32,451 nt of DNA from Bacteroidales bacterium. GTDB taxonomy: Bacteria > Bacteroidota > Bacteroidia > Bacteroidales > UBA932. Both the position numbers and the translations under genes were made by a program. The stretch covers positions 1-32,451 of the forward strand of contig JAGBTG010000009.1 in assembly GCA_017631435.1 (NCBI GenBank), in the 5' to 3' direction. Shown piece by piece: positions 5,932 to 23,422 of this stretch (its first letter is position 1; every line of letters begins with the position of its first letter). A model generated the notes under the pieces. It worked only from the letters and a program-made list of their open reading frames with translations. It ran no database searches and was not told the origin of the DNA.

Positions 5932-5958
5932 AAAAAAAAGGGGGTTAAACCAACCCCC
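5932..5958 (-). terminator. Intrinsic terminator of the met operon, overlapping the asd stop codon
   Basis: On the minus strand GGGGGTT, a 5-nt loop, AACCCCC, then eight T. The asd stop codon (5945-5947) lies at the loop/3'-arm junction, so the last codons of asd form the 5' arm. Confidence 0.85.
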
Positions 5959-6979
5959 TCTGTACTAATAGTTCTGCTATCTGCACCGCATTTGTGGCGG
6001 CACCTTTCCTCAGATTGTCGGCCACGCACCAGAGATTTATGCCGTTCTCCAGTGAAGGGTCCCTTCTTACCCTTCCAACAAATACCTCATCCTTGTCCTT
6101 TGTGAACAGAGGCATCGGGTAAGGGAGATTCTCAGTTGAACCTATTGCAGAAGGCTGGGCGCCGTTCTCAAGCTGCACTGCATCCTGCACAACCACACCA
6201 GCTGTGTTCCTCAAGGTCTCAAAAATCTCCTCCATCTCAAACGGTTTTGCAAACTCAAGGTTGATGGACTCTGCATGTCCGCCAAGCACCGGAACCCTTA
6301 CTGTGGTAGGGGATACCCTTATGGTCTCATCCCTCATAATCTTGTGGGTCTCGTTCACCATCTTCATCTCTTCCTTGGTGTAGCCGTTCTCAAGGAACAC
6401 ATCAATGTGGGGAAGGAGATTCAGGTCTATCTGATACGGATATGCAACTGTAGTTGGCTCTGTACCCTCTCTCTCTGCACTCATCTGGTCTACAGCCTTT
6501 TTGCCTGTACCTGTGATGCACTGGTAGGTTGAAACCACAATCCTCTTTATTGTAAATCTCTTGTGTAGGTCTGCAATTGCAACCAGCATCTGTATGGTTG
6601 AACAGTTGGGGTTTGCAATGATGCGGTCACCCTCCTCAATCACATCTCCGTTAATCTCGGGAATCACCAGTTTCTTGGTAGGGTCCATCCTCCAGCATGC
6701 AGAGTTGTCAATCACATAAGTCCCAACTTCTGCAAATTTTGGAGCCCACTCCTTTGAAACACCACTTCCTGCAGAGAAGAGTGCTATTGCAGGTTTCATC
6801 CCGATAGCCTGTTGCGGTGTACATACCGCATATTCCTTGCCGTTAAATTCAACTTTGCTTCCCTGTGATCTCTCGGATGCAACCGGGATAAGTTCTGTAA
6901 CAGGAAAATTCCTCTCCTGCAACACTCTCAACATATTTCTGCCAACCAGTCCGGTGGCACCAACTACTGCTACTTTCAT
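5945..6979 (-). CDS. asd: Aspartate-semialdehyde dehydrogenase
   Basis: NADPH-dependent reduction of L-aspartyl-4-phosphate to aspartate semialdehyde, the branch-point precursor of Lys, Met, Thr and diaminopimelate. It is 344 aa, with an N-terminal Rossmann motif ([13 protein letters not shown]) and the catalytic cysteine in NPNCSTIQ (Cys126). The substrate-binding region contains [11 protein letters not shown]. It begins 6 nt after the thrA stop and is the last gene of metY-metX-thrA-asd. In this order the operon holds the aspartate kinase, ASA dehydrogenase and homoserine dehydrogenase activities plus the two steps to homocysteine. Its stop codon is inside the operon's terminator hairpin. 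Confidence 0.95.
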
Positions 6980-6985
6980 AATGTC

Positions 6986-9454
6986 CTATATGCTCAAAAT
7001 GTCATTCAATACACCGCCGGCAGTCTGTTTTGCACCTGCGCCGGCACCTTTAATTACTATAGCGTTAGGGTAATATTCACTTTCAATGATTACCGCGTTG
7101 TCTGTACCCTCAAGGGTATAGAACGGATGCTCCTTGCCAATGCTCCTGAGTGAGATTGTACATACCGGTTTGCCGTTCTCCTGTGTGCGGGTGGCATCCA
7201 TTGCTGCAATGAACCTCAGTTTCTCCCCTCGCTCAGCTGCCTGGCCATATTGGGCCTTAAGGTGTGGCTCGTATGCCTCAAGCGCTGCGTAGAACTTCTC
7301 TGCGTATGAAGGGAAATGGGTCTCCTCCTTGCACATGATCTCCTCCGGGATGAATCCCTGGAAGTCCACATCCTGGGTGTCAATGGCAAAGCCTGCCTGT
7401 CGGGAAGAGATGAGGAATTTGCGGAAAACATCTGTTCCTGCAAGGTCAAGCCTTGGATCGGGCTCTGCATATCCCATTTCAGCAGCCTCCTTCACAAGGG
7501 CAGCAAAAGATTTCTCCCCGTTGTAGTTGCTGAACAGGAAGTTCAATGTTCCCGACAGGATTCCCTCCATCTTCTTTATTGAGTCACCGCAGTTTACAAG
7601 CTGCAGGATGGTCTCAAGTACAGGAAGTGCCGCACATACGGTGGTCTCGTATTTGTACTGCACTTTCTCCCTTCTTGCAGTTGCAAAGAGCTCCTGGTAA
7701 GACTCGTAAGAAAGTGAGTTTGCAATCTTGTTGCATGCTACAACCGAGAACTTGTGGCGGAACAGATCAACGTACAATGATGCAATGTTGCGGTTGGCTG
7801 TGCAGTCTGCAAAGATTGAGTTGCTCAGTTTCATGTTGCAGATCTGGGAGATGTAAGCGTTGTCTGTATTGGCCTCACCCTCTGCAAGGTTGAATCCAGG
7901 CTCTATTCCGTTGCGGTTGATGATATAGTTCCTGCTGTTGCAGATTCCGCAGATTACAATCTCCTTGCCCAGTCTCTCCTTAATTGATTTGCGCTGTGCA
8001 AAAATGATATCCACAAGTGCCTTTGATACAGTGCCGTAGCCTGCAATGAAAAGGTTTACCCTGTTTGCACTGCTGCCAAAGAACTCTGTGTGGATAGCCC
8101 TTATGGCGTCGTTCACATCCTGTGTGTGCAGTACTGCAGACACATTCTTTTCTGAGGAGCCCTGAGCAATTGCACGGATGTTGATTCCCTCTCTTCCAAG
8201 GGCCTCAAACATCTTTCCGCTGGCACCGCTCTGGTTCTTCATGTCGTCACCTACAAGGGAGATGATTGAGAATCCTTTCTCCACTTTAAGCGGATCTACC
8301 TTGCCAAGTGATATCTCGTAGGCGAACAGTTCGTCTGCCGCCTTCTTTGCCTTGTCTGCATCCTCCTCTGCAATTGCAATGCACATTGTATGTACAGATG
8401 ATGCCTGGGTGATGAGGATGATGTTCACATTGTTCTTGCTCAATGTGTCAAACAGCTTGCTGGAGTAGCCTGGGATTCCCACCATGCCGCTTCCTTCCAT
8501 TGAAAGGAGGGCAATCTTGTTGGAAGAGGAGATTCCACGTATCTTCTCCTGCCCCTCAGGCGGGTTGCGCTCTATGAGGGTTCCAAAGTCGTCGGGAGCA
8601 AAGGTGTTCTTTACATAAATTGGAATTCCTTGTTTTACAACTGGCTGGATTGTAGGCGGATATACCACTTTTGCCCCAAAGTGTGAAAGTTCAAGGGCCT
8701 CCTTGTATGATATGTTTCTGATTGGGCGGGCATCTGCAACTACGCGTGGGTCTGCTGTCATCATACCGCAAACGTCTGTCCATATCTCAAGCCTGCGGGC
8801 CTGGGTGCCTACCGCTATGATTGATGCGGTGTAGTCTGAGCCTCCGCGGCCAAGGGTGGTTGTACGTCCTGCAAGGTCTGATGCAATGAAACCGGGCATT
8901 ATGTACAGCTTGTGCTGGTCGTTGCTGAAGTACTCCCAGATATTGCTGCCGGTAAGGTTGTCAATTACAGCGTTTTTCCCCTGAACAAGCTCTGTCTTTA
9001 CCAGTTCCCTTGAGTCTTTCCACTGGTGGCTGATGTTCAATGATTTAAGTTTTGCGCTTATGATATTGGTTGAAAGAAGTTCTCCAAAACTTACAATGTG
9101 GTCCTGGCTGAGTTCTGTAAGTTCCTTCAAAAGGAACACACCCTTGCAGATCTCCCTCAATTTGTTGAACAAGCTATTGCAGGTCTCCTTTATTGTCTCG
9201 GACTCCTCTGCCGGTATAAGCTCTGCAATGATTGCGTTGTGCTTCTCCTGCAAGGCATCTATTAGCTGAAGATAGCTCTCATCACCGTTCTTTGCTGTTT
9301 TTCCAATAAGCAGGAGTGCATCTGTAGCCCCGCTGATGGCAGATGAAACTACAACTGTCCTGTCATTTGCCAAAGCTCTCTTTACAATGGCAATTACCTT
9401 GTTTATGTTGGTGGCGTTGGCAACCGAGCTGCCGCCAAATTTCAATACTTGCAT
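6986..9454 (-). CDS. thrA: Bifunctional aspartate kinase / homoserine dehydrogenase
   Basis: Catalyses aspartate phosphorylation and, in the second domain, NAD(P)H-dependent reduction of aspartate semialdehyde to homoserine. It is 822 aa, the usual length of the fused enzyme. The aspartokinase domain begins with KFGGSSVANA and contains the TTLGRGGSDYTA motif near residue 210. A pair of ACT-like regulatory segments follows (about 310-450), e.g. GMVGIPGYSSKLF. The homoserine dehydrogenase domain begins near 465 (NLFIAGYGTVSKAL) and contains EGILSGTLNF and GYAEPDPRLDLAGTD. It lies 18 nt downstream of metX. No thrB or thrC is near, so this copy appears committed to methionine supply, although its homoserine is equally usable for threonine. 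Confidence 0.96.
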   Translation of the reverse strand: MQVLKFGGSSVANATNINKVIAIVKRALANDRTVVVSSAISGATDALLLIGKTAKNGDESYLQLIDALQEKHNAIIAELIPAEESETIKETCNSLFNKLREICKGVFLLKELTELSQDHIVSFGELLSTNIISAKLKSLNISHQWKDSRELVKTELVQGKNAVIDNLTGSNIWEYFSNDQHKLYIMPGFIASDLAGRTTTLGRGGSDYTASIIAVGTQARRLEIWTDVCGMMTADPRVVADARPIRNISYKEALELSHFGAKVVYPPTIQPVVKQGIPIYVKNTFAPDDFGTLIERNPPEGQEKIRGISSSNKIALLSMEGSGMVGIPGYSSKLFDTLSKNNVNIILITQASSVHTMCIAIAEEDADKAKKAADELFAYEISLGKVDPLKVEKGFSIISLVGDDMKNQSGASGKMFEALGREGINIRAIAQGSSEKNVSAVLHTQDVNDAIRAIHTEFFGSSANRVNLFIAGYGTVSKALVDIIFAQRKSIKERLGKEIVICGICNSRNYIINRNGIEPGFNLAEGEANTDNAYISQICNMKLSNSIFADCTANRNIASLYVDLFRHKFSVVACNKIANSLSYESYQELFATARREKVQYKYETTVCAALPVLETILQLVNCGDSIKKMEGILSGTLNFLFSNYNGEKSFAALVKEAAEMGYAEPDPRLDLAGTDVFRKFLISSRQAGFAIDTQDVDFQGFIPEEIMCKEETHFPSYAEKFYAALEAYEPHLKAQYGQAAERGEKLRFIAAMDATRTQENGKPVCTISLRSIGKEHPFYTLEGTDNAVIIESEYYPNAIVIKGAGAGAKQTAGGVLNDILSI

Positions 9455-9472: not shown

Positions 9473-10492
9473 TTAAATAAGGTTTTCACTCTCTACAATA
9501 TCTTTTATCTGCTTCCACTCCAGAAGGAATCCGTCGTGGCCGAAAGCAGATGTTATCTCCATATATTTTGCACCGGGAATGTGCTGTGCCATAAACTTCT
9601 GCTCGCAAGTGGGGAAAAGTCCGTCTGAATCTATTCCCACACACACTGTGTTTGCTGTAACCATTTCCATGGCCTTCTCCACTCCGCCCCTGTAGCGTCC
9701 CACATTGTGGCTGTCTGTAAGATTGAGCATGCTCAGGTATGAATAGGCATCAAACCTGTCTACAAGTTTCTTCCCCTGGTATCTCTGGTATGAACCGGCC
9801 CTTTGCGGGAATATGCAGTCCTCATTGCTCTCGGCCTGGGTTGTATTGTAACCCTCAAAACTTCTGTATGAGATGAGGGCAATGGATCTTGCTGCAGCCA
9901 GGCCTGCCTTTCCCCCCAATCCCTGCTCAAAAGTGGGGTCTGCATACAATGCCATCCTCATGGATTCATTGAATGCGCTTCCCCAAGGGGTAAAGCGGCA
10001 GTTGCAGGCAAGCAGTACCAGATTCTTTATCTTCTGCGGATACATGATACTCCACTCCAACGCCTGGAATCCTCCAACCGATCCTCCAATAAGAAGGTCT
10101 ACCTTCTCAAGTCCCAAATGCTCAAGGAGCAAATTGTGGCACTGGGCAATATCCCTTACTGTTGTCTTTGGAAAATCCAGCAGGTAAGGTTTCCATGTTG
10201 CAGGATTGATGGAGCATGGAGATGTACTGCCGTAGCACGAGCCAAGGATGTTTGCACAAACTATGGTATATTTTCTTGGATCAAAGAACTTGCCCTCTCC
10301 AACCAGAACATCCCACCAGTCTGTAGGGTCTGAGTTGGCTGTAAGGGCGTGGGTGATCCAGACAACTTTCTTTTCCGCAGATTTTTCTGCAGTGTATTCT
10401 CTGGAGATATGATAGCATATCTCCATTTCCTCCAGCACCTCGCCGCATTCCAGTGCAAACGGCACGTTATGCCTGTAAAATCTCTTTTCCAT
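9473..10492 (-). CDS. metX: Homoserine O-acetyltransferase
   Basis: Alpha/beta-hydrolase-fold enzyme that acylates homoserine for direct sulfhydrylation. The nucleophile elbow is GGSVGG (Ser138). The acidic residue is probably Asp288 or Asp290 in GIDSDGLFP, and the catalytic His is in AFGHDGF (His319). The oxyanion region near residue 50 reads ITHALTANSD, and CANILGSCYGSTSP follows near 80. It is 339 aa, normal for MetX. It starts 5 nt after metY stops, so the two are almost certainly cotranscribed and together make homocysteine from homoserine. Some members of this family use succinyl-CoA. I call acetyl from the pairing with metY, not from a specificity residue I could verify. Confidence 0.92.
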   Translation of the reverse strand: MEKRFYRHNVPFALECGEVLEEMEICYHISREYTAEKSAEKKVVWITHALTANSDPTDWWDVLVGEGKFFDPRKYTIVCANILGSCYGSTSPCSINPATWKPYLLDFPKTTVRDIAQCHNLLLEHLGLEKVDLLIGGSVGGFQALEWSIMYPQKIKNLVLLACNCRFTPWGSAFNESMRMALYADPTFEQGLGGKAGLAAARSIALISYRSFEGYNTTQAESNEDCIFPQRAGSYQRYQGKKLVDRFDAYSYLSMLNLTDSHNVGRYRGGVEKAMEMVTANTVCVGIDSDGLFPTCEQKFMAQHIPGAKYMEITSAFGHDGFLLEWKQIKDIVESENLI

Positions 10493-10497
10493 GGCTG

Positions 10498-11784
10498 TTA
10501 TTTGCTGATAGAGTCAAGTGCCTGCTGGAAATCGGCAATCAGGTCTTCAATATCTTCAATTCCCACACTTATCCTCAATGTTCCCGGAGCAATGCCAATG
10601 CTGCGGAGTTCCCCGTCGCTCAACTGCCCGTGTGTGGTTGTTGCAGGGTGGGAGATAAGTGAGCGGTTGTCTCCAAGATTGGTAAGGAGAGTGTACAGTT
10701 TGAGGTTGTTCACAAACTTGCCGGCCTCTTCCCTGCTCACCTTCAAATCAACTGTAAACACTCCGCCAAATCCGTTGCGCAAATATTTGAGCGCATTCTG
10801 GTGTGAAGGGTGGCTCTCAAGTCCGGGATAGTTTACTTTCTCCACCATTGGGTGCTGCTCAAGCCATTTTGCAAGGGCAAGTGTATTGTCGCACACACGC
10901 TGGCACCTTAGTGAAAGGGTTTCACATCCTGTAAGTACAAGGAATGCGTTGAAAGGTGAGAGGCAGCTGCCAAAATCCCTCAATGCCACGCATCTTACAT
11001 AGGCTGCAAAGGCGCAGTTGCCAAAGTGCTCTGCAAACTTTATGTTATGGTATGAAGCACAAGGCTCTGTAAGTTGAGGGTATTTTCCGCTCTCAAACCA
11101 ATTGAAGTTGCCGCAGTCTACAACTATTCCTGCAAGGGAGTTGCCGTGTCCGCCAATATATTTTGTGGCTGAGTGGCAGATGATGTTTGCACCAAAATCA
11201 ATAGGGGCACATACATAGCCTGCACATCCGAATGTGTTGTCTACAATGAAGAGAATTTTGTGCTGGCGGCAAATCTCAGCCAGCATCTGGAAATCCGGAA
11301 CTGAGAAATCCGAGTTTGCAATGGTCTCAACATAGATTGCCTTTGTATTCTCATCAATGAGGCTCTCAATCTCCTCCCTGTTATTGCATTTGTTGAGCTT
11401 TACATTTATACCAAGCTTTGGAAGTGTAACCTTAAACTGGTTGAAGGTGCCTCCATATAGAGACATTGAACTGATTATATTGTCTCCTGCGTTGCAGATA
11501 GAAGAGATGGTGAGGAACTGTGCGCTCATTCCGCATGTTGAAGAAACAGCTGCAGTACCTTTCTCCAATGCTGCAATCCTCTGTTCAAGGACATCAGCAG
11601 TAGGGTTTCCAAGGCGTGAGTAGATGTTGCCTGCCTCCTCAAGTTCAAAAAGTCTTTTTCCGTGCTCTACATCCCTGAATGCGTATGCAGAGGTCTGGTA
11701 TATTGGGGTGATGCATGCTCCTGTTACAGGATCCGGCTGTGCACCTGCACGCACCTGGAGTGTGTCAAATTTATATTGTGACAT
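10498..11784 (-). CDS. metY: O-acetylhomoserine sulfhydrylase (O-acetylhomoserine aminocarboxypropyltransferase)
   Basis: PLP-dependent Cys/Met-metabolism enzyme that condenses O-acetylhomoserine with sulfide to give homocysteine. I chose the ATG at 11784 (MSQYKFDTLQVRAGAQPDP, 428 aa), where family homology begins. The frame is open further upstream to 12024, but that stretch is the leader region in another frame and does not look like protein. The PLP lysine is Lys208 in HSATKYIGGHG; YSRLGNPT and the C-terminal SHPATTTH-QLSDGELR block are typical. It is the first structural gene of the metY-metX-thrA-asd operon. The 193 nt between the Met-rich leader ORF start and its ATG probably carry the control element. 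Confidence 0.94.
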   Translation of the reverse strand: MSQYKFDTLQVRAGAQPDPVTGACITPIYQTSAYAFRDVEHGKRLFELEEAGNIYSRLGNPTADVLEQRIAALEKGTAAVSSTCGMSAQFLTISSICNAGDNIISSMSLYGGTFNQFKVTLPKLGINVKLNKCNNREEIESLIDENTKAIYVETIANSDFSVPDFQMLAEICRQHKILFIVDNTFGCAGYVCAPIDFGANIICHSATKYIGGHGNSLAGIVVDCGNFNWFESGKYPQLTEPCASYHNIKFAEHFGNCAFAAYVRCVALRDFGSCLSPFNAFLVLTGCETLSLRCQRVCDNTLALAKWLEQHPMVEKVNYPGLESHPSHQNALKYLRNGFGGVFTVDLKVSREEAGKFVNNLKLYTLLTNLGDNRSLISHPATTTHGQLSDGELRSIGIAPGTLRISVGIEDIEDLIADFQQALDSISK

Positions 11785-11990
11785 AGTTGTAGTCTTAAGT
11801 GTTCTTAAAAAATTGGAATCTTCTGGAGAATGAAATACCCTGTGCCTCCTGCCCAAGATAAATCTAAGGGAAAATGAACAGCATCTTAGCGATGCATTCG
11901 CATAATGTACATGCCCATCATACCCATTGCCATAGCCGGCATGGATGTAACCTGAATGATATGAGGGCTTTTGTTCATCCTTGCAAATAT
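11785..11990 (-). promoter_or_regulatory. Putative methionine attenuator / leader region upstream of metY
   Basis: Leader RNA between the promoter and the metY ATG. Pairings seen by eye: (i) ATGAACA (11972-11978) with TGTTCAT (11874-11880), extendable by two G.U pairs over the AAGG before the ATG; (ii) hairpin GCATC-GCTAA-GATGC over the leader stop; (iii) CCC..AGA-TTTA-TCT..GGG just downstream; (iv) a weak competing pairing TTGGG...TCCAA with an inner GGAG/CTCC ending at a T6 run (11807-11812), a possible terminator; (v) a small hairpin TTAAG-AACA-CTTAA next to the metY start. (iii) and (iv) share the GGG. I see no known SAM riboswitch core. The fold was not computed. Confidence 0.5.
11886..11978 (-). 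CDS. Methionine-rich leader peptide of the met operon (30 codons)
   Basis: A 30-codon ORF that starts ATG AAC AAA and ends CGC TAA. Nine of 30 residues are Met, at positions 1, 13, 16, 18, 20, 21, 23, 26 and 28, so eight fall in the last 18 residues (segment M-P-A-M-A-M-G-M-M-G-M). It sits 101 nt upstream of metY, which makes homocysteine, the direct precursor of methionine. That is where an attenuation leader would be, with the regulated amino acid heavily encoded. The last codons and the stop lie in a perfect hairpin GCATC-GCTAA-GATGC. The first bases (ATGAACA) are complementary to TGTTCAT just after the stop (11874-11880). Function as a leader is inferred. Translation has not been shown, and the likely transcription start is only about at the ATG, so the RNA would be nearly leaderless. 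Confidence 0.7.
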   Translation of the reverse strand: MNKSPHIIQVTSMPAMAMGMMGMYIMRMHR

Positions 11991-11991
11991 A
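11984..11991 (-). promoter_or_regulatory. Promoter -7 box (TATATTTG) of the met operon
   Basis: Exact TAnnTTTG match, ending 5 nt before the leader ATG. Elsewhere in this window the gap from box to start codon is about 19-31 nt. The -33 region shows no clear TTTG. Confidence 0.6.
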
Positions 11992-12001
11992 ATAAATTTG
12001 A

Positions 12002-12046
12002 TATAAAAAAATCCCGGGAGGCATATTTTTTTTGCATCCCGGGATT
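12002..12046 (-). terminator. Intrinsic terminator of the [FeFe] hydrogenase gene
   Basis: Perfect 10-bp stem AATCCCGGGA / TCCCGGGATT with an A-rich 17-nt loop, followed on the minus strand by a run of seven T. It separates the hydrogenase from the met operon that lies downstream on the same strand. Confidence 0.88.
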
Positions 12047-12064
12047 CATTTATTGTTGTGCAGA

Positions 12065-13501
12065 TTATCGCTTGTTAAGCTCTGCGGTCATTCTCTTCTG
12101 AGAGGTAACCTTGTCGGTTCTGATACATGGGCCTGAAGCACAACCGCCCTCACATGCCATTACCTCAATGAAAGGTGCAGGGCATTTGCCTGTTTTGGCG
12201 TAAACCTTAAGCATTGCAATGTTCTTCTTGTTAAGGTTGGCTACCTTAAGGGCAGGAAGATTTGCTTTGTCAAGGAATACTTTCACAGCCTGGGTTACAC
12301 CACCGTCCTGTGCAAATCCATGAGCCTCCTTAACAGAGGTGAAAGGCATTGTCATTGGCTCAATCTGTTTTATGTCAATGTTGAAACCGTCAAAGATAGA
12401 ACCCAACTCCTCAAATGTCATTACATAATCAACATTGTCATGGTATCTTGCCTCTTTTCTCTTTGCAATACAAGGACCGATGAATACAGTCTTGGCCTCA
12501 GGGTCTTTTGCCTTTACAATCTCTGCAGTGTAGTACATTGGAGATTTTGTAGTTGAGATGTATTTCTCAATCTCAGGGATATGTTTTTTTGCCAATTGTA
12601 TGTATGAAGGGCAGCAGCTGGTTGTCATGAACGGCTGGCCCTCCTCAAGTTTCTCCTCAAGCTCGTGAGCCTCGTTCTCTGTAGTTACCATTGCACCCTG
12701 GGCAACCTCAATTACATCTGTAAAGCCAAGTGATTTGATTGCACCGTAAATCTGCTCAATAGGCTCGCTGAACTGGCCAAGGATTGCAGGGGCAACCATT
12801 GCAACCACCTTCTCGCCACGTTTGATGCTCTGAAGGATGTCAAACACCTGTGAAATCTCAAAGATTGCACCAAACGGACATGCGTTGATACATTTTCCGC
12901 AGTAGATACATTTGCTCTCGTCAATGTGCTCTACGCCGTACTCATCTTTGCTTATTGCCTTAACAGGACATACATCCTCACAAGGAACAGGGATGTATAC
13001 AATTGCATGGTAAGGACAGCTTGCATGACATTTACCGCAGCTGATACATTTGTCGTGGTCAATCTCAGCCTGACCGTTGTTCTTGAAGTGGATTGCATCC
13101 TTAGGACAGTTCATGTAGCAACTTCTTGCAACACAACCGCGGCAAAGGTTTGTAATCTCATAGTTTACCTGAACACAAGATGAACAAGCCTCGTCAATTA
13201 CAGTAAGAATCTCCTCCTTAAGGTTTTTCTCCCTTGTAACTGCAGCCTGTGCATAGTAAGAAAGAGGTGTAAGCTCATCTTTCTCGTCGGTCATGTCAAA
13301 TCCAAGAAGAGGAAGAGATTTGTATTTCCATACAGCACGCTCCTTGTGGATACAACAGCGTCCTTTAACTTTTGATTTTCTTGGACTTAGCTCAATTGGT
13401 AGTCTGTCAATGCCCTCAATAAGCTTGTCTTCTCTCCAAAGCTTTACAAGTTTGGCAAGCAAGCCGTGACGGACAATCATAACATTGTTTGTAAATGCCA
13501 T
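12065..13501 (-). CDS. Monomeric [FeFe] hydrogenase, group B-like, with N-terminal ferredoxin-type clusters
   Basis: Probably a ferredoxin-linked hydrogenase that evolves or oxidises H2. It is 478 aa. The N-terminal half carries multiple [4Fe-4S] motifs: a C-x2-C plus CRGC-x3-SC-x3-CP region (about 108-135), CISCGKCHASCP, and PCEDVCP followed by CIYCGKCINACP. The H-cluster domain has the three signatures in variant form: TTSCCPSY (L1), GPCIAKRKEA (L2) and EVMACEGGCASGPC (L3). L2 with PCIAK instead of MPCxxK and L3 ending GPC are the group B pattern, as I recall it. There is no PAS or other sensory domain, so a sensory group C protein is less likely. Maturation genes hydEFG are not in the window. 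It has its own promoter and terminator. Confidence 0.87.
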   Translation of the reverse strand: MAFTNNVMIVRHGLLAKLVKLWREDKLIEGIDRLPIELSPRKSKVKGRCCIHKERAVWKYKSLPLLGFDMTDEKDELTPLSYYAQAAVTREKNLKEEILTVIDEACSSCVQVNYEITNLCRGCVARSCYMNCPKDAIHFKNNGQAEIDHDKCISCGKCHASCPYHAIVYIPVPCEDVCPVKAISKDEYGVEHIDESKCIYCGKCINACPFGAIFEISQVFDILQSIKRGEKVVAMVAPAILGQFSEPIEQIYGAIKSLGFTDVIEVAQGAMVTTENEAHELEEKLEEGQPFMTTSCCPSYIQLAKKHIPEIEKYISTTKSPMYYTAEIVKAKDPEAKTVFIGPCIAKRKEARYHDNVDYVMTFEELGSIFDGFNIDIKQIEPMTMPFTSVKEAHGFAQDGGVTQAVKVFLDKANLPALKVANLNKKNIAMLKVYAKTGKCPAPFIEVMACEGGCASGPCIRTDKVTSQKRMTAELNKR

Positions 13502-22454: not shown

Positions 22455-22967
22455 ATGGAGCCAAAAGTAAGTATTATAATGGGCAGCACTTCAGATATGA
22501 AGGTTATGGATCAGGCTGCCAAATTCCTTGAGGAGATGGAAATCCCATTTGAGATCAACGCATTGTCTGCTCACCGTGTTCCCGACATGGTTCATGAGTT
22601 TGCAATGAATGCACATAAGAGAGGTGTGAAGGTAATCATTGCCGGAGCAGGTGGAGCAGCCCATCTTCCAGGTGTGATTGCAGCATCAACCCCGCTGCCT
22701 GTAATTGGTGTTCCAATCAAGTCTTCAAACTCTATAGACGGTTGGGATTCAATCCTTTCAATTCTTCAGATGCCTTCCGGTATTCCTGTTGCAACAATGG
22801 CTTTGGACGGTGCAAAGAACGCAGCCATCCTTGCAGTGCAGATTCTTGCATGTGCAGATGCTGACCTGTTTGCCAAGTTTGAGAAGTTCAAGGCAGACCT
22901 TGCAAGCAAGATTGCAAAGGCTAATGAGGAATTGGCACAGATTAAGGAGTACAAGTTTAAGGTGTGA
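22455..22967 (+). CDS. purE: N5-carboxyaminoimidazole ribonucleotide mutase (class I PurE)
   Basis: De novo purine synthesis, converting N5-CAIR to CAIR. It is 170 aa, the class I length. Signature segments: MGSTSDMKVM at the phosphate-binding loop, ALSAHRVPD (catalytic His), GAGGAAHLPGV, and the GVPIKSSNSIDGWDS loop. It is transcribed alone; purK is not adjacent. A promoter box is shared back to back with hpt, and a strong terminator lies 24 nt after its stop. Confidence 0.96.
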   Translation: MEPKVSIIMGSTSDMKVMDQAAKFLEEMEIPFEINALSAHRVPDMVHEFAMNAHKRGVKVIIAGAGGAAHLPGVIAASTPLPVIGVPIKSSNSIDGWDSILSILQMPSGIPVATMALDGAKNAAILAVQILACADADLFAKFEKFKADLASKIAKANEELAQIKEYKFKV

Positions 22968-22991
22968 ATCTGTTGACTTGCATTTTCGGAT

Positions 22992-23021
22992 AATGGAGGC
23001 CTGCGGGTCTCCATTTTTTTT
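22992..23021 (+). terminator. Intrinsic terminator of purE
   Basis: AATGGAGGCC, short loop, GGGTCTCCATT with one G.U pair, then eight T. Confidence 0.88.
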
Positions 23022-23023
23022 GT

Positions 23024-23055
23024 TTTGTCCTGGATGTGTGGAGCTTTCCGGGACA
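23024..23055 (+). repeat. 32-bp hairpin repeat, copy A
   Basis: Begins TTTGTCCTGG and ends TTTCCGGGACA. Same length and layout as copies B (23229-23260) and C (23333-23364). The ends pair (GTCC.GG / CCGGGAC). Confidence 0.6.
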
Positions 23056-23068
23056 TTTTCCTACTGAC

Positions 23069-23221
23069 GAGAAATACATCCACGTTTGGGCGGCAGAATG
23101 TGGATGAAATGTTTGTGTCGAGCAAAATATCCACGTTTGAGCGGCAGAATGTGGATGAAATGCTTGTGGCGCGCAAGATATCCACGTTTGAGCGGCACAA
23201 CGTGGATGAAATGTTCGTGCA
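23069..23221 (+). repeat. Three tandem 51-bp repeats, each containing an inverted repeat
   Basis: Units at 23069-23119, 23120-23170 and 23171-23221. Adjacent units are about 84-88% identical by eye (six and eight differences). Each has ATCCACGTTTG...GTGGATGAAATG, giving an ATCCAC/GTGGAT stem. In unit 3 the stem is a perfect 9 bp, ATCCACGTT / AACGTGGAT. The period is 17 codons, so frames stay open on both strands, but no ORF here looks like a protein. Not a CRISPR: there are only three units and whole units, not just a constant part, are conserved. Confidence 0.85.
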
Positions 23222-23228
23222 GGGGATG

Positions 23229-23364
23229 TTTGTCCCGGATGTGAGGCGTTTTCCGGGAAATTTCCCTTCTGCTGCGATAGTTTGTCCCGGTTTTGGTGTC
23301 GAAATGAGGATGTTTTGCTGGTGCAGGGGGTGTTTGTCCCGAAAGTAGTGTGTTTTCCGGGATA
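23229..23364 (+). repeat. Hairpin repeat copies B and C with shared upstream sequence
   Basis: Copy B (23229-23260, TTTGTCCCGGATGTG...TTTTCCGGGAAA) and copy C (23333-23364, TTTGTCCCGAAAGTA...TTTTCCGGGATA). Both are preceded by GTGCAGGGGRTG, so the repeat is really about 44 bp. A partial copy of the first ten bases (TTTGTCCCGG) lies between them at 23281. With copy A and the 51-bp units this fills most of the 482-nt gap between purE and the next gene. Nothing else is seen there apart from the next gene's promoter. Confidence 0.6.
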
Positions 23365-23422
23365 AAGTGCAGTGAAGCAATAAATTGTGATGGAATTTGC
23401 TTTAACGGAAGGGGATTTTTTG

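Follow-up and report, generated by a model that had tools for sequence, protein, structure and literature searches.

The trp, his, thr, leu and ilv operons are governed by leader-peptide attenuators, and in the phylum considered here the Bacteroid-trp motif likewise represents leader peptides placed before an amino-acid biosynthesis operon. In the TnaC and pyrBI leaders, termination is decided by the position of the ribosome near the stop codon of the leader, the signals being free Trp and UTP. Leader-peptide attenuators of amino-acid operons are treated in PMC2965389, and in Bacteroidota the portions of the literature examined mention this kind of attenuation only in passing: clues to it have been given for amino-acid operons of Flavobacterium psychrophilum (PMC9723704), and ORFs in the 5'UTRs of B. 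theta have been called reminiscent of leader peptides (PMC7366714). In Xanthomonas, the 5'UTR of a met operon, and not its promoter, responds to methionine; the authors report translational control and a partial likeness to a SAM-I aptamer (PMC6230763). The literature examined also includes PMC4833913, PMC2258182 and PMC6429828. Among the matches listed in our literature search, which comprised titles and the beginnings of abstracts, mostly from outside the subscription journals, we found no description of a Met-codon leader or of a SAM-I/leader tandem in Bacteroidota.

The locus described here lies in a stretch of 32,451 nucleotides from a Bacteroidales genome, which was analysed as a whole and is called the window. 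Its Met-rich short ORF resembles the trp, his, thr, leu and ilv leaders in being adjacent to the promoter and rich in codons for the end product, as well as in the mutually exclusive hairpins predicted in some relatives (L056 and L096); it differs from them in its putative regulatory residue, Met, in its Bacteroidales host, in what appear to be several types of output, in a conserved M-R-M-H core that overlaps a hairpin at the stop codon, and in a tie to SAM-I in related families. The importance of the ribosome position near the leader stop would be shared with TnaC and pyrBI, with the difference that Met codons are the likely signal here. With the Bacteroid-trp motif, as with the F. psychrophilum leaders, the locus has in common the phylum and the placement of leader peptides before amino-acid biosynthesis operons. 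However, the accessible part of PMC9723704 names no methionine operon, M-R-M-H core or SAM-I tandem. The Xanthomonas met 5'UTR is comparable as a Gram-negative 5'UTR answering to methionine, but the text of that paper contains neither "leader" nor "small ORF" (PMC6230763).

Organization of the leader and operon in the window

The leader and its operon lie on the minus strand. The leader ORF (11886 to 11978) has 30 codons and encodes the peptide MNKSPHIIQVTSMPAMAMGMMGMYIMRMHR, in which eight of the nine Met residues fall within the final 18 positions. It is preceded, with a gap of 5 nt to its start codon, by the TAnnTTTG promoter box TATATTTG (11984 to 11991), which is kept in relatives, and its stop codon is separated from metY by 101 nt. 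A previous interpretation based on the letters alone, referred to below as the sequence-only reading, had placed such a box and a nine-Met ORF before metY, and both are present. The operon continues in the order metY-metX-like-thrA-asd, with metY (O-acetylhomoserine aminocarboxypropyltransferase; 10498 to 11784) as its first gene (TIGR01326, 569 bits, cutoff 495.1), followed by a metX-like gene of the homoserine O-acetyltransferase family (9473 to 10492), thrA (aspartate kinase/homoserine dehydrogenase; 6986 to 9454; NF006959, 857 bits, cutoff 726) and asd (aspartate-semialdehyde dehydrogenase; 5945 to 6979; NF011456, 403 bits, cutoff 223). The metX-like product scores under the NCBIfam cutoffs, both for its best match, TIGR01392 (319 bits, cutoff 500), and for NF001209 (284.5 bits, cutoff 331).

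Comparison with relatives delimits a conserved core, ATGCGAATGCATCGCTAAGATGC (11881 to 11903), which comprises the codons of M-R-M-H-R, the stop codon and the 3' arm of a hairpin, and which occurs as a single copy in the genome of origin with up to three mismatches allowed. The hairpin, here called hairpin A (GCATC-GCTAA-GATGC, 11881 to 11895), has a loop that contains the stop codon, which agrees with the hairpin over the stop proposed by the sequence-only reading. It is directly followed by the U-rich stretch TGTTCATTTT (11871 to 11880), and it was the sole site found by a terminator scan of positions 11700 to 12120 (one site, versus a shuffle mean of 0.2).

Another terminator-like hairpin, ATCCCGGGA..TCCCGGGAT with T7 (12005 to 12046, minus strand), was seen by eye in the gap that separates the leader promoter from the [FeFe] hydrogenase gene upstream of it, and probably sets the two transcription units apart; it is absent from the list of the simple terminator scan, which took loops of 3 to 8 nt only. 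Elsewhere in the window (22957 to 23380), a short unit is repeated between genes (STFERQNVDEM.. in one frame) and looks like an intergenic tandem repeat.

No Rfam family, T-box and SAM classes included, exceeded its gathering score in the window. The 18 matches at E values up to 10 between 11770 and 12070 were all far under the cutoffs and comprised no methionine, SAM or T-box element, and the SAM-I family (RF00162) gave no match in the genome of origin; a SAM riboswitch over the leader region, which would have spoken against a Met-codon leader, was thus not found.

Conservation of the leader among relatives

We tabulated 87 distinct leaders of like kind. Genomes of the window's family supplied 54 of them and named Bacteroidales records the other 33; the downstream gene is metX in 36 and metY in 51. 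The leaders end with the in-frame core ATG CGA ATG CAT (M-R-M-H), which contributes its final bases to hairpin A as the 5' arm. In 85 of the 87, a TAnn(n)TTTG box stands 4 to 35 nt before the leader start codon; since the box is so close, there is little room for an upstream aptamer. No box was assigned in L040 and in L047, the latter of which lies near a contig end and was left out of the codon, pairing and folding counts. The conservation of a Met-rich ORF, whose absence from relatives the sequence-only reading had named as evidence against itself, was therefore confirmed.

A less biased view is given by 23 loci of the window's family that were picked by MetY similarity alone, in 22 of which, the window included, the core CG.ATGCATC followed 3 to 9 nt later by GATGC precedes metY. 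A pattern search found the core in 35 of 149 family genomes (36 matches), versus none for a reversed control pattern. In the named collection, 60 of 90 core-bearing stretches precede metX or metY (54 by the next ORF, four by tblastn, and L066 and L130 through their counterparts L240 and L037, which show metY), one (L136) is undecided, and 29 have no MetX or MetY gene next to them. The latter, together with two viral contigs, were taken as chance matches, of which conserved coding sequence in Acidobacteria is an example; the 29 come mostly from other phyla, three being labelled Bacteroidales or Prevotellaceae (L118, L119 and L124). A Cryptobacteroides record (L090), which we take to belong to the window's family, has the same kind of leader.

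The covariance model R1, run on 344 Bacteroidales genomes, reached at least 38 bits in three genomes only, all of the window's family; the other genomes scored at most 24.8 bits, and none of the matches at L157 to L183 adjoins metX or metY. Among the 49 matches fetched from 249 family genomes, metX or metY comes next in all 41 that score at least 26.2 bits and in none of the seven at 25.3 bits or less, while L252 is too close to a contig end to be judged. The leader table received 23 of the family matches, 21 of which have standard arms; these matches, too, form a less biased sample than the pattern searches.

At 20 further metY loci of the family, the exact core was found only in L203, with variants in L184, L189 and L190 and a Cys-rich leader in L185, whereas 15 have no such leader directly upstream, seven of them appearing on reading to lie inside an operon. 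At L187, L193, L194, L195, L197, L199 and L200, an inverted repeat like AATACCAT-N-ATGGTATTG was noticed near the promoter, 5' of metY, and this repeat is possibly the operator of a met/cys regulator in leader-less lineages.

Methionine codons and the conserved tail

Codon usage was counted in 39 representatives, pairwise less than 70% identical, the ORF body being defined as the ORF minus its start codon and its M/K-R-M-H tail. In the bodies, ATG accounts for 65 of 716 in-frame codons, compared to 2 of 677 and 4 of 677 in the other frames; dinucleotide shuffles of the same bodies gave 20.2 ± 4.0 in-frame ATG, with a maximum of 38 in 500 shuffles. In nine of the 39 representatives, the body is devoid of Met, which then occurs in the tail only.

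The C-terminal residues are the most conserved part of the leader, and the N-terminal part drifts. In the tail, ATG precedes Arg in 35 of the 39 representatives, followed by CGA in 38, ATG in 39 and CAT in 38, a conservation that is partly by construction, given that the search patterns fix most core letters and that one of them demanded CGA; where the third base of this codon was left free in the pattern, it is A in 34 of 36 cases. The counting of Met codons gives no account of CGA, which is kept in 38 of 39 representatives, far more strictly than the coding of Arg needs, and for which slow decoding or a constraint at the RNA level are candidate explanations. The residues of the core do change in some leaders, namely His to Gln in L209, His to Arg in L217, Arg to Gln in L230, Met to Lys or Ile in the g22 leaders and L220, and Met to Thr in L014.

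The hairpin at the leader stop codon

All five pairs of stem A can form in each of the 86 leaders counted, a figure that is partly by construction because many leaders came from patterns holding both arms; among the loci selected for MetY similarity and nothing but the 5' core, 22 of 22 also have the 3' arm GATGC. In L209, the change of His to Gln is accompanied by a two-sided compensatory change of the stem (GCAAC/GTTGC), and in L217 the change of His to Arg leaves one G-U pair. The loop varies in length from 4 to 9 nt, and the stop codon lies within it in 26 of the 39 representatives and after the stem in the other 13. Since the 3' arm is kept though mostly noncoding, and since core residues change with the stem kept, both the RNA pairing and the Met codons, beyond the peptide alone, seem to be under selection.

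Hairpin A itself is weak in the window, with five pairs, and the same bare stem has -5.6 kcal/mol in L054 and L092. A U-rich stretch follows it in 17 of the 39 representatives, compared to 12.1% of random spacer positions. The stability of the stop region in leaders of this kind has a mean z of -1.81, again partly by construction, and RNAalifold applied to 15 compact leaders returned hairpin A, an inner stem of three pairs and nothing else.

Candidate output structures downstream of the leader

Terminator-like hairpins of -8 kcal/mol or lower were found downstream in 9 of 39 leaders, compared to 13 of 195 shuffles. In L056 and L096 (identical with L015), which belong to the window's genus, a terminator of -19 kcal/mol with U5 is overlapped at its 5' arm by an alternative hairpin, CCCUUAU/AUAAGGG, a layout that, read from the sequence, is that of a textbook attenuator. 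The window has a similar but weak layout (CCC..AGAU/AUCU..GGG versus CUUGGGC-AGGAG-GCACAGG-GUAUUUC): a candidate antiterminator-like pairing, CCC..AGAT/ATCT..GGG (11852 to 11870, minus strand), identified by eye and itself weak, overlaps the following candidate terminator hairpin, CTTGGGC-AGGAG-GCACAGG, succeeded by GTATTTC (11839 to 11857, minus strand; -7.1 kcal/mol), which corresponds to the weak second hairpin suspected before. A stretch similar to this hairpin is found in the near relatives L135, L110, L128 and L092. A mutually exclusive terminator/antiterminator layout is clear in L056 and L096 and weak in the window.

In other lineages, the leader is complementary to the initiation region of metX or metY. 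Over the 39 representatives, this complementarity is significant as a whole (Fisher 7e-7) and reaches p ≤ 0.05 in nine; the leader's own initiation region ranks in the top 5% for 10 of 39 leaders, with p = 0.93 for a control region. The complementary segments are TCATATCAATG and CATTGATATGA in L226 (as RNA, UCAUAUCAAUG and CAUUGAUAUGA) and TGAATATTTCAG and CTGAAATATTCA in L210, and further cases are L043, L127 and L090. In the window, no complementarity of this kind was found between the leader and the metY start (p = 0.97). In 19 leaders with a 4-nt loop, one spacer hairpin covaries.

Several other candidates were set aside. The complementarity between the start of the ORF and the bases after its stop (ATGAACA/TGTTCAT), to which the sequence-only reading had drawn attention, is present in the window, but it is not significant there (p = 0.16) and is borderline over the 39 leaders (Fisher 0.033), and it was not retained as a conserved element. 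Pairing of the ORF body with the bases after the stem (Fisher 0.77) and a 5' hairpin over the leader start (Fisher 0.95) were rejected as well. A Rho/rut reading was dropped as not specific, C exceeding G in 31 of 39 spacers, and so was a CsrA-like reading of the RGGA loop seen in some spacers, because CsrA is, to our knowledge, not expected in this phylum.

Association with SAM-I riboswitches and other leaders

SAM-I aptamers were matched in 45 of 159 Bacteroidales genomes, where they precede the same genes as the leaders described above, whereas neither the window nor its own genome has an aptamer over the cutoff. At the Bacteroidales loci L256 to L302, an ORF of 8 to 60 codons begins 5 to 17 nt past the aptamer at 36 of 50 sites (the count covers 50 of the 51 sites listed), with metY, metX or metH as the gene behind it; the other 14 sites have no such short ORF, 11 having none and three running into the main gene. 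In these ORFs, Met makes up 67 of 358 residues (18.7%) in the last ten codons versus 6 of 707 (0.8%) before them, with out-of-frame ATG in the tails at 2 of 322 and 2 of 322. The last ten codons contain at least one Met in 32 of the 36 leaders and at least two in 26; furthermore, Arg follows 25 of the 67 Met residues, and seven of the 36 have an in-frame CGAATG among their final 12 codons. Unlike the leaders of the window's kind, those behind SAM-I lack a special hairpin at the stop codon (mean z of -0.70, like their other positions).

Within the window's family, L184 combines a SAM-I match of 63.9 bits with a subsequent short ORF ending in ..HVGRMRA. Among 20 picked SAM-I sites of other Bacteroidia (loci L303 to L332 left out), an ORF occupies that place at three, of which only L333 fits. 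The leader of the window looks like an aptamer-less version of the SAM-I/leader tandem; the simplest history, and the most likely one, is that this family lost its aptamer.

Two more of the sites picked from other Bacteroidia (L342 and L348) have a later short ORF with R-M-C-M (CGAATGTG) downstream of the SAM-I aptamer, which is possibly a second Met leader; in L342, a GC-rich hairpin with a T-run stands between the two. In genus g19 of the window's family (L185 and L031), metY is preceded by a Cys-rich leader, ..MIAMCMCFCLC.. (MVMCCCFCFAGICFC..), and by a strong terminator hairpin; a GCCGGA stretch within the leader is able to pair with the 5' arm of this hairpin. The arrangement looks like a cysteine attenuator, and the combination of a Cys-rich leader with a strong terminator suggests that attenuation by leader peptides is native to the family.

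A putative Met-codon attenuator and its alternatives

We consider a ribosome-mediated Met-codon attenuator to be the best explanation of the leader, with a probability of about 0.7, and the sensing of Met codons by the leader, taken by itself, to be quite probable. Stalling at Met codons fits the in-frame enrichment of Met and the location of the last Met codons on or beside the 5' arm of hairpin A, as well as the nature of the target genes. The transcript would begin within a few nucleotides of the point where the leader ORF starts, and would be loaded with a ribosome at once. When charged Met-tRNA is scarce, this ribosome would stall at the last Met codons and, through its footprint, would block the pairing of the 5' arm of hairpin A (..AUG CAU C); with hairpin A open, RNA polymerase would read through and metY-metX-thrA-asd would be made. 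When methionine is plentiful, the ribosome would end at the stop codon in or just after hairpin A and leave, hairpin A would fold, and attenuation would result from pausing or termination at the U-rich stretch together with lineage-specific downstream structures, which may be a terminator with a competing antiterminator, as in L056/L096, or, in several other lineages, a leader that masks the metX/metY start. Hairpin A may serve as a pause, terminator or timing signal, and the odds that it is the element held open by the stalled ribosome appear even to us; for the window, we lean slightly toward a transcriptional rather than a translational output.

With respect to the sequence-only reading, the Met-codon ribosome sensor is backed by the conserved ORF and its frame, the clustering of Met, the hairpin at the stop codon, the promoter box and the association with metX and metY. 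The other half of that proposal, a change in downstream folding, fares less well, as the start/post-stop pairing is poorly conserved and terminators are convincing only in some relatives, others masking the start.

Control might instead be mainly translational, the leader RNA masking the metX/metY initiation region until a ribosome stalled at the Met codons unmasks it, with no termination involved. Even though the complementarity found in L226, L210, L043, L127 and L090, among others, speaks for such a masking (Fisher 7e-7, against p = 0.93 for the control), we regard it as rather unlikely, considering that it is missing from the window (p = 0.97), that only 9 of 39 representatives reach p ≤ 0.05, and that L056/L096, from the window's own genus, bear strong terminators. 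Arrest by the nascent peptide, in which the C-terminal R-M-H(R) in the exit tunnel would sense Met or SAM and stall the ribosome near the stop in a TnaC-like manner, would explain why conservation is highest at the last residues and low in the drifting N-terminal part, and why seven of the 36 SAM-I leader ORFs also have CGAATG in frame among their last 12 codons. It gives no account, however, of the Met enrichment in the variable body, of the 3' arm that is kept though noncoding where the stop codon is in the loop (26 of 39), or of the core residues replaced with the stem kept (L209, L217, L230, L220, the g22 leaders and L014), and we hold it to be improbable, with some weight left to it because CGA-ATG is so strict.

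Alternatively, the core might be the target of a small RNA or of a regulator that binds RNA or DNA, with the Met codons being incidental. The element CGAATGCATC is indeed more conserved than pairing or coding alone requires, and the DNA of the core is partly palindromic; yet in the tabulated leaders the core shares its frame with an open short ORF that closely follows the promoter box, the loop length varies between 4 and 9 nt, and in-frame Met enrichment extends outside the core, which makes this explanation very improbable. Finally, a single genome with one weak hairpin would leave room for a chance short ORF without function, but 87 distinct leaders share the same features, and in-frame ATG occurs in 65 of 716 codons versus 2 of 677 and 4 of 677 in the other frames; because the leader is conserved, an ORF due to chance is refuted, and we give it practically no weight.

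Implications for methionine sensing in Bacteroidales

In related families, the tandem of SAM-I aptamer and leader would provide a dual input, SAM plus Met-tRNA. More broadly, we tentatively propose, with somewhat less than even confidence, that Bacteroidales possess a two-input leader in which a SAM-I aptamer is followed by, and perhaps gates, a Met-codon ORF, such that the SAM level and Met-tRNA charging would be read serially on a single RNA. The window's family would have lost the aptamer, and the leader ORF, with a hairpin that takes its 5' arm from the last Met codons, would have taken over, connected to exchangeable outputs (terminator/antiterminator or start masking). If this is true, gut Bacteroidales would have a translation-based methionine sensor, and their leaders would offer both an example of a riboswitch and a leader peptide that were joined and later separated and a naturally occurring series of output modules built around a single sensor.
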